In this document: one piece after another, positions 39,963-42,393 of the stretch
How positions within the stretch are numbered: position 1 is the stretch's first letter
Layout: the number at the start of each line of letters is the position of its first letter
Source of the DNA: Pseudomonadota bacterium
GTDB taxonomy: Bacteria; Pseudomonadota; Gammaproteobacteria; Xanthomonadales; SZUA-36
Direction: 5' to 3'
NCBI GenBank assembly: GCA_015222805.1
Contig: JADFVZ010000056.1
Span: 1-64,000 of the forward strand
DNA length: 64,000 bases
The notes under the pieces: model-generated
What the model saw: the letters and a program-made list of their open reading frames with translations, nothing else
The model's database searches: none
Told to the model about the DNA's origin: nothing
Made by a program: the position numbers and the translations under genes

Positions 39963-40328
39963 TTATTTACGCTTTGCCTGCCGCCACCATATCCAGATGC
40001 CTGAGATTGACAATAGCAACAGCAAGCCCGCCATCAAGTCGCTGAACCAGAGCGCCAGCGGCCCGAGGAAGCGGGCAGCATGCAGGTCCAGCATCAACCG
40101 TTCCCAGCTGATTAGAGCAGCTTCTTCAAATTCATCACCCATGGTCAGCGGGTAGAGCAGCTCCTGCAGCAGGCCGGGGATGCTGCTTTGATCGAGTCCC
40201 CAGTCATGAGCATGGTTAATCAGCAGGCCGGAAATAGCCAGCAGGATCAGCCAGGCTGCCACGCTGATGCCAATGCGTCGATGCCAACGGGCGAGAAGTT
40301 GTTTGCGCCGGGCTTTATCTAGTGTCAT
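39963..40328 (-). CDS. PepSY-associated transmembrane protein
   Basis: 121 residues: a basic N-terminus (RRKQLLARWHRRIG), a first transmembrane helix (about 21-38, AWLILLAISGLLIN), a periplasmic loop with HAARFLGPLALWF, and a second helix (about 95-113) ending WIWWRQAKRK. This is the short PepSY-TM type found with iron-uptake and ferric-reductase-like systems; the histidines could bind heme or metal. The ATG at 40328 lies inside the terminal repeat of a MITE-like element. Removing the element and one TA copy recreates an in-frame start that overlaps the stop of the FMN-binding gene, encoding the same first residues (MTLDKARRK), so the gene was originally coupled to its neighbour. A modest AGG lies six bases before the present ATG, also within the element. 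Confidence 0.75.
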   Translation of the reverse strand: MTLDKARRKQLLARWHRRIGISVAAWLILLAISGLLINHAHDWGLDQSSIPGLLQELLYPLTMGDEFEEAALISWERLMLDLHAARFLGPLALWFSDLMAGLLLLLSISGIWIWWRQAKRK

Positions 40329-40608
40329 GTCAAGCCTATAGTGTAGGATTCAGCGAGTCGTGAAGTGGTTGGGCGCAAGGCACGTCTCGCCGGCAATGGC
40401 CTGGTCCTTGCCCAGAGGCGTACCAGGAGTAGGCGCCCTCAGGCGACGCCGCGAACGACCGCTTCACGGCTCGCCCGAAGGGAACTACCCAGATGCCCCA
40501 ATACGGCGTTGCAGCCCTTGAAAAGGACAAGCCATTTCCTGCGGACTGCGTCTTGTCTTGGATCATCTGGGTAGCTCTGAACCTCACACTATAGGCTTGA
40601 CATGACAC
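40322..40608. mobile_element. MITE-like element with 32-bp terminal inverted repeats and TA target duplication
   Basis: 287 bp bounded by inverted repeats at 40322-40353 and 40577-40608 that agree at 29 of 32 positions and begin GTGTCATGTCAAGCCTATAG. Both ends are flanked by TA (40320-40321 and 40609-40610), the duplication typical of IS630/Tc1-mariner transposition; CTAG at each end is also consistent. Inside lie two further inverted pairs: 40354-40371 with 40456-40473 (15 of 18) and the perfect 11-bp pair CTACCCAGATG (40485-40495) with CATCTGGGTAG (40564-40574). No transposase frame is present; short open frames inside have no coding character. Confidence 0.85.
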
Positions 40609-40613
40609 TAGGG

Positions 40614-41183
40614 TCATTGCAGTTTTTCCCTTCTGAGCTGGTCGAGTAGCAGGGCCAGGCGCACCTGGCGATTGAGGGCATTCACCGACAGGGTCGCACC
40701 GCTGATTCCATTGATCCGTTTATCCAGCTGATGTTTGTTATCGAGTTGTGCATCACTGTATTGACGGGTAAACCTGCGGCGGTGAACTTCGGCACCGCGG
40801 CTTTCACGAAATTCAAGGACCTGCACAATTTCCACAGCTCCATTGTTGATAATAATACCGGTGGTGATTGGCTCAATCTTACCGATTTCGTCCAGCACCC
40901 AGGCTGAGCGTCCAGCATGCAGGCAATAATGCTGCCGGAGCTTTGAGTAAGAGCGTTGGATTAACTTTTCAATTCGCAGCTTATCGACTTTAGCTAGCCA
41001 CAAAGATTTCTCTTCGCAGCCTGTTTGTGCAAAGCCCTGCTGGATGAAATCAGCTGCGCTCAAATAGATACGCTGTTGGGCCTGCACCGAAATAATCGGC
41101 AGCAGGCACAGCAGCATACACAGGCCAGCCTTTATCTGGGCTTTGTATTTAGAACTGATAACCGACTCCGATATTCCAGCCAT
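40614..41183 (-). CDS. FMN-binding domain protein, exported
   Basis: About 189 residues from ATG 41183; the open frame extends to 41228 but that part lies inside the porin gene. After a hydrophobic export segment (CMLLCLLPIISVQA) the protein carries a C-terminal FMN-binding domain with the GISGATLSVNALNR stretch, whose Thr can take flavin covalently as in NqrC/RnfG-type proteins. Cysteines in QTGCEE and HYCLH are notable. In family members the domain passes electrons at the outer face of the inner membrane. It overlaps the porin gene by about 35 bp and originally overlapped the PepSY gene start by ATGA, before the MITE-like insertion. Confidence 0.78.
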   Translation of the reverse strand: MAGISESVISSKYKAQIKAGLCMLLCLLPIISVQAQQRIYLSAADFIQQGFAQTGCEEKSLWLAKVDKLRIEKLIQRSYSKLRQHYCLHAGRSAWVLDEIGKIEPITTGIIINNGAVEIVQVLEFRESRGAEVHRRRFTRQYSDAQLDNKHQLDKRINGISGATLSVNALNRQVRLALLLDQLRREKLQ

Positions 41184-42393
41184 CGTAAGATTTTGTACCA
41201 ACTGGTGCATTCTGGCTTTGATAGTCAAGTTTGAATACTACATTTGGATGCAGCCAGAAATTGACCCCGGCATCCCACTGTGTATACTCGCTGTCAAGTC
41301 GGTCGCCGGCCTGGTTATCCCAGGCGTTATAGCGGGCAAAGATTCCCCATTGCGGGTTAAACCGCCAGTTGGGTTCGATATACCAGCCCGTTTGCTGGTC
41401 TGCCCCTATCGCTGCTGGTCCGGTACCGTCAAGTGACCAGCTGGCATACAGGGCGCGCAGGGAGAAGGTATCGGTCTGCCAGCTTAGATGGGTTTCCATA
41501 AGGGTTGCGCCACCAGCTGTCGGGTCGTTTTCCTGGGTGATGTCAACCTGGTATTGTGCGGTAAGGCCCAGTTCAAGGCCGGGCAATCCCAGCCAGCGCA
41601 GCCTGCCGGTATATGCGCCGGAATTAAACTCGGCTTTGGCAACTTTTTGTCGGCCTTTACGAATAGCATAACCACTCTCCGCACTGGTGTTCAAACCGGA
41701 TGTAGCAGCAAAATCATAGCTGATACCATCAGCAAAACTGCCGTTGACTGACACACCGCCTTCCCACCAGGTTGACGGGATAATGTTCTTCTCTATTGGG
41801 TTGCGCTCAACCCCGTAGAAAGTATTGGGTTCATGGGTCTCGTTGATGATACCTACAGGTACCAGGAACAATCCTGCGCGGAATTGATTGTTTTGATTCA
41901 GGTCGTATTCGATATAGGCCTGTTCAATTTCTACTTCTCCGGGTTTACCGTCTCCTGAGAGGGCGTGTTCTACCTCAACTTCTGAGAAGAAACGCAGACG
42001 GTCATTAAACTCATGCCCGAAAAAGAGTACGAAACGGTGAAAATCGATACTGTTTTTATCTTCGGTATTGGTACCATCCAGCAGATTGGCATGTAATTCT
42101 CCATAGCCACCAATGCTGGTTCTACTCACTGGCTTCCTGTCTTCTGCCTGTTCTTCCAGGTTTTCTGCAAGAATCTCAGTTTTCTGGTTCGCTTCAGCCG
42201 CCTTGTTACTGTTTTCTGCTACATTTGCGCTGATTGAATCCAGCTTTTCCTGCATCAGTATAAGTTGTTGTTGCTGGGCTGCTATCATGGCTCGAAGTTC
42301 GGCTATTTCTTCACTGTCGGCCTGTGCCATGCCTGCAGTTCCCAAACTTAACATTATCGCAATAGTGATGCTTAAAATCCTGTTCGTCACCAT
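41149..42393 (-). CDS. Outer-membrane porin (OprO/OprP-like) with N-terminal coiled coil
   Basis: 414 residues with signal peptide to MAQAD. Residues about 28-80 form a coiled coil (IAELRAMIAAQQQQLILMQEKLD), as in trimeric porins. The remainder shows amphipathic beta-strand periodicity (GGYGELHANL, FRAGLFLVPVGIINE, HEPNTFYGVERNPIEKNIIP) and ends in the aromatic V-G-Y-Q-F that BAM recognises. It resembles the phosphate-selective porin O/P family, but its double Fur-like box and its coupling to FMN-binding and PepSY proteins suggest an iron- or siderophore-linked role. First gene of a three-gene leftward operon. Confidence 0.85.
   Translation of the reverse strand: MVTNRILSITIAIMLSLGTAGMAQADSEEIAELRAMIAAQQQQLILMQEKLDSISANVAENSNKAAEANQKTEILAENLEEQAEDRKPVSRTSIGGYGELHANLLDGTNTEDKNSIDFHRFVLFFGHEFNDRLRFFSEVEVEHALSGDGKPGEVEIEQAYIEYDLNQNNQFRAGLFLVPVGIINETHEPNTFYGVERNPIEKNIIPSTWWEGGVSVNGSFADGISYDFAATSGLNTSAESGYAIRKGRQKVAKAEFNSGAYTGRLRWLGLPGLELGLTAQYQVDITQENDPTAGGATLMETHLSWQTDTFSLRALYASWSLDGTGPAAIGADQQTGWYIEPNWRFNPQWGIFARYNAWDNQAGDRLDSEYTQWDAGVNFWLHPNVVFKLDYQSQNAPVGTKSYDGWNIGVGYQF

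Follow-up and report, generated by a model that had tools for sequence, protein, structure and literature searches.

Gene Organization and Anatomy of the Insertion

The window, which is the whole stretch of 64,000 nucleotides that was analysed, carries a host operon in the order porin, FMN-binding protein and PepSY-associated TM protein. A non-coding element of 287 bp with terminal inverted repeats of 32–35 nt lies between codons 2 and 3 of the PepSY gene (Table 1). Direct reading of the sequence showed that the inverted repeats, taken over 35 nt (40319–40353 and 40577–40611), are 91% complementary. The terminal repeat occurs only at these two ends within the window, and 0 occurrences were expected in shuffled sequences.

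Table 1. Features at the FMN-binding/PepSY junction (a slash marks the element boundary)
Feature	Position	Strand	Evidence
PepSY-associated TM protein (121 aa), encoded by the operon's last gene	39963..40328	-	Pfam PF03929
TA target duplication, PepSY side, inside CTAG	40320..40321	.	sequence
Terminal inverted repeat, PepSY side; outer end CTTGACATGACAC/TA, source of the start codon	40322..40353	-	
MITE-like element, 287 bp	40322..40608	- (orientation of host-gene transcription)	sequence; homologous copies in relatives share its boundaries
PepSY start ATG, element-supplied	40326..40328	-	N-terminus conserved with relatives
AGG located 6 nt ahead of the new ATG and base-paired in the predicted stem; a possible weak Shine-Dalgarno	40335..40337	-	
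93-codon frame from the original PepSY ATG across the element, TAG 7 nt before the new ATG	40336..40617	-	
Inner inverted repeat giving an inner hairpin; arms 40482–40504 and 40555–40577	40482..40577	-	
Terminal inverted repeat, FMN-binding side	40577..40608	-	
TA target duplication, FMN-binding side, inside CTAG	40609..40610	.	sequence
Original ATGA, overlap of PepSY start and FMN-binding stop	40614..40617	-	
FMN-binding domain protein (longer ORF version starts at 41228 with TTG)	40614..41117	-	Pfam PF04205

Read on the minus strand, CTG-CAA-TGA closes the FMN-binding ORF, whose stop (40616–40614) overlaps the original PepSY ATG (40617–40615). Removal of the element and one TA gives the empty site ATGACCCTAGATAAA, in which the PepSY gene opens ATG-ACC-CTA-GAT. 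With the element present, the PepSY ORF opens ATGACACTAGATAAA at 40328, preceded by the AGG at 40337–40335. The junction on the PepSY side reads AGG-CTTGAC-ATG-ACA-C/TA-GAT, where codons 1 and 2 (ATG ACA) come from the element and codon 3 (CTA) is made of the element's last C and the target TA, and the N-terminus remains M-T-L-D-K. The insertion cut off the first seven bases of the gene, ATGACCC, and the last seven bases of the element, ATGACAC, replaced them, keeping Met-Thr-Leu-Asp. The start codon was shifted by 289 nt, and 285 nt with an open frame inside now lie between the FMN-binding stop and the new ATG. A sequence-only reading of this DNA had described the ATGA overlap of the empty site, the element end supplying ATG-ACA-CTA-GAT behind an AGG, and N-terminal residues unaltered by the insertion; all three were confirmed by reading the sequence, with MTLD in both versions. 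Its description of a MITE-like insertion also stands, given the repeats, the TA duplication and homologous copies in relatives that are bounded at the same points. We hold this anatomy to be practically certain.

The Junction in Element-Free Relatives

Four relatives from other genera of the same bacterial family lack the element and keep the FMN-binding and PepSY genes adjacent. In these genomes the PepSY start overlaps the FMN-binding stop by 11 nt (ATGACNNTTGA, or GTGACGGCTGA), in contrast to the 4-nt ATGA here; the overlap reads ATGACGATTGA in L082 and L083, ATGACCGTTGA in L085 and GTGACGGCTGA in L084. The overlap expected by the earlier reading was thus present in all four, whereas the expected 4-nt form was replaced by the 11-nt one. 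On this comparison it holds that the pre-insertion layout was a start/stop overlap, the 4-nt form of which is peculiar to the lineage of the window. Three genomes of the same genus were also searched, and both genes were absent from all three; no close empty site could therefore be read.

The N-termini of the relatives (MTID, MTVD, VTAD ... ARWHRR) align to MTLD...ARWHRR, and residues 1–60 of PepSY showed 52–59% conservation with them. This conservation of the N-terminal residues indicates that 40328 is the right PepSY start.

RNA Fold and Translation of PepSY

Folding prediction for the RNA of the element gave a single hairpin of great stability (−165.4 kcal/mol, z −10.5). In its terminal-repeat stem, of about 27 bp, lie the new ATG and the AGG, with predicted unpaired probabilities of approximately 0.001 and 0.000, respectively. 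When the 5′ arm was absent, the predicted values were approximately 0.69 (ATG) and 0.32 (AGG); the corresponding prediction for the ATG at the joined empty site was 0.815. No terminator-like site was found in the element on the coding strand. Because the ATG and AGG are sequestered in the stem, the new start is not ready-made by itself, and either upstream readthrough or RNase III cleavage is probably needed for its use.

The sequence-only reading had held that translation of the two genes was separated by 289 bp. This did not hold up, because a frame of 93 codons runs from the old ATG across the element; through it some form of coupling could persist, and translation is not necessarily severed. 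On this model, PepSY would still be made mainly via translation from upstream. Ribosomes ending the FMN-binding frame at TGA would restart on the overlapping old ATG, read the 93 codons across the element while melting the terminal-repeat stem, halt at TAG and restart on the new ATG 7 nt further. Two successive reinitiations are usually inefficient, which counts against coupling. We infer reinitiation here, and we propose coupling as the main route of PepSY translation only tentatively.

The main alternative is that RNase III would cut the stem and so expose the start; without coupling or such cutting, the stem should reduce PepSY output. The enzyme would act on the terminal-repeat stem in the mRNA, so that FMN-binding and PepSY would be carried on separate messages and the new ATG would be released. 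The long perfect stem with symmetric ends fits this, being a property linked to cleavage in Correia elements (PMC2649163), as does the predicted exposure of the ATG in a transcript without the 5′ arm. However, a cut within the 3′ arm could take away the start itself, and we consider this route unlikely. A putative promoter within or at the edge of the element, giving a PepSY transcript that lacks the 5′ arm and has an accessible start, seems very unlikely. Correia ends can form promoters (PMC2649163), and one promoter-like match of 9 of 12 positions (ATGACC-18-TATAGT, 40617 to 40588) is present on the coding strand. That match, however, uses the 5′ end, so its transcript would still keep most of the hairpin, and a consensus match ending close to the 3′ arm was not found.

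The PepSY-associated protein lacks approximately 110 residues of the middle domain compared with its operon relatives (225–280 aa), and the shortening is in frame. With these residues missing, selection on the gene may be weak, and its start might not be in use. The main rival to coupled translation is therefore silencing of a gene of reduced importance, in which the buried ATG would be little used and the intact frame would be a relic or a chance fit in an already degrading gene. The complete pairing of ATG and AGG in the predicted fold and the missing middle domain are consistent with silencing, and the loss of the last gene of an operon would be cheap. However, the 121-aa frame is intact and was shortened in frame, the gene retains a coding score, and identity to the relatives is 52–69% at either end of the protein. 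We regard silencing as rather doubtful.

Start Supply by Element Ends

Eleven intact outward ends reading CTTGACATGRCAC/TA were found in 39 genomes of the bacterial family, and only that of the window opens into a gene. Recurrent use of the ATG was therefore rejected (1/11 ends in use). The sequence-only reading had suggested looking for other copies whose ends supply an ATG; none of the other ten ends serves a gene. Nor was its proposal that the element brings a usable ready-made start sustained, with the ATG and AGG buried in the stem and one of the 11 ends in use.

The TA required in codon 3 was present in 17 of 210 sampled ATG-started genes of the genome family, and CTAG was present there in 1, the PepSY gene as it is now. 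With so rare an exact fit, a lucky and tolerated insertion is the best reading of the event. The fit may be coincidental and open to retention by selection, because with the target TA in codon 3 only an ATG at offset −7 restores a start, and this variant of the terminal repeat carries its ATG there. We think it probable that a TA/CTAG-targeted non-autonomous element entered the PepSY gene at codons 2/3, that the start was restored by coincidence and that translation would be coupled.

Copies, Ends and Core of the Element Family

Approximately 35 complete copies with matched ends (183–314 bp) were found in relatives (G000, G018, G023, G028, G031 and G036), and the element is multicopy in G028, G031 and G018. 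Only two copies were found in the window's own draft genome. The second one (L088:1136-1407, G000 contig C122) is a diverged copy of 272 bp, where the upstream TAG stop is formed with the element's first base and an ORF of 756 aa begins 5 nt beyond the other end. Among the genomes with this repeat class, two are public MAGs labelled Gammaproteobacteria OFTM312 and Lysobacterales N1M-Bin_12.

All copies begin with GT and end with AC, and most are flanked by CTA on the left and TAG on the right. Among 32 copies, the left flank was CTA in 16 and TTA in 5, the right flank was TAG in 16, and some had CA or TG on one side. In L064, L069, L131, L138 and L122, TA is present at one end only; the other end has CA, TG or a different dinucleotide, which may stem from later mutation or imprecise insertion.

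The core is conserved. Of the 26 nt in an arm, 23.4 on average match the other arm of that copy, versus 14.6 for arms of different copies. Arms that diverge between copies and match within each were seen from L062 to L138 (for example L067:10011-10297, L071:1775-2037, L077:2013-2275, L106:2017-2301 and L130:2064-2327). Such a pattern may reflect either concerted or structure-constrained change of the repeats. Two reduced forms were also observed. L145 (G028:C49:285792-285834) is a core-less palindrome of about 40 bp consisting only of two ATG-class terminal repeats. L150 (G031:C16:56450) is truncated and retains just one ATG-class end, and here again the neighbouring frame seems to end ...ATC-TAG at the element boundary.

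A coding function of the element was rejected, because mismatches among copies are not in excess at the third positions of the mostly open frame: they were 13.0, 20.9 and 12.3% at positions 1, 2 and 3. No known RNA family matching the element was found. A search of seven genomes for a longer or autonomous element with the terminal-repeat pattern (up to 3 mismatches) returned only short or truncated copies. The DDE_3 transposase (PF13358) was absent from 6 of 7 copy-bearing genomes, and its single occurrence lacked these terminal repeats. These are draft genomes, which makes the absence of a transposase or autonomous form weak, and the element was therefore not filed as a proven IS630 derivative.

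Position of the Copies in Operons

Gene calls around the copies were made with a small codon-based gene finder. Copies lay between co-directional genes in 26 of 32 cases, the neighbour's TAG stop was composed of the target TA and the element's first G in 14 of 35, and a gene start lay within 9 nt in 13 of 35, a cut-off picked after the data were seen. The near-start genes include presumed ValS-, MnmG-, XthA-, NarH-, T2SS-F- and HisC-like ones, named partly by their N-termini. At these copies the native ribosome-binding site is displaced, so the repeat end would have to serve. The common arm class reads outward GGAGYAC/TA, as in AAGGAG-CACTATT-ATG ahead of the XthA-like gene.

Targeting of starts or stops was considered and rejected. 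The 13 of 35 near-start copies exceeded both non-genic TA sites (94/1228, p 2e-6) and CTAG sites (5/40, p 0.016). In a matched test within each copy's own intergenic region, however, 12.6 were expected (P 0.50), and the near-start excess arises because copies sit in short junctions and not from aiming at starts. The excess at stop codons was not significant against CTAG controls (14/35 vs 10/40, p 0.22), so a CTAG preference suffices for the TAG stops. The family occurs in tight operon junctions, with no evidence that starts are aimed at. A core-conserved family, its arms diverging yet paired within each copy, might be tolerated there because its ends bring translation signals: TA and the first G keep a TAG stop, the common class brings GGAG (Shine-Dalgarno) and the rare class of the window brings ATG. 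We think this reading improbable.

Comparison with Known Elements

Like the Correia elements of Neisseria (CREE/NEMIS), the element is small and non-coding, is bounded by TA on either side, has long terminal inverted repeats, a conserved core and a large (here predicted) mRNA hairpin, and is often 5′ of genes. It differs in size (287 bp versus approximately 107/155 bp), and its terminal repeats have another sequence and vary between copies. The Correia end sequence (AACAAAAA or AAATTTAAA variants; PMC2649163) was not encountered; the ends here read GTGTCATGTCAAGCC..., and the core, by eye, merely resembles TCAGGACAA and CCGGTACGG. Promoter and IHF features are known of Correia elements. Cleavage of Correia repeats by RNase III in mRNA is documented, and gonococci have a Correia element whose last base, an A, opens an ATG (PMC2649163).

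The element shares with IS630/Tc1-mariner-type MITEs, such as RUP with IS630-Spn1, the TA duplication, the CTAG preference, terminal inverted repeats at exact boundaries, a short non-coding multicopy form and no transposase. A preference of IS630 for CTAG has been published (Tenzen and Ohtsubo 1991, as cited in PMC2170065). Unlike these MITEs, no autonomous partner with these repeats was found here, and DDE_3 is missing as described above. The element would behave like a MITE of the Correia or IS630 type. Since the Correia ends were not encountered and a transposase was not identified, it was assigned to neither named family, and we file it, on its sequence, as a small TA-flanked MITE.

In MITEAba12 of Acinetobacter, the terminal ends hold start codons with a few further codons behind them, which would allow fusion to adjacent genes (PMC6382973). 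That element has another size and other repeats, and its consensus offers a potential, in contrast to one realised junction here. ERIC/RU and Rickettsia palindromic elements are also small repeats that join reading frames, but they add residues in frame, whereas none was added or lost here. A MITE end contributing to a start codon therefore has precedent in Correia elements and MITEAba12, and the present case is a known kind of insertion, not a new mechanism.

Significance

The locus is a clean case, with an inferred empty site, of a small mobile element entering a coding sequence and leaving the protein unchanged. It points to a MITE family of the host's bacterial family that is apparently undescribed in the literature searched. 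Its copies often lie between operon genes, directly before the starts of important genes (valS-, xthA-, mnmG- and narH-like), where the repeat would have to act as or replace the ribosome-binding site.
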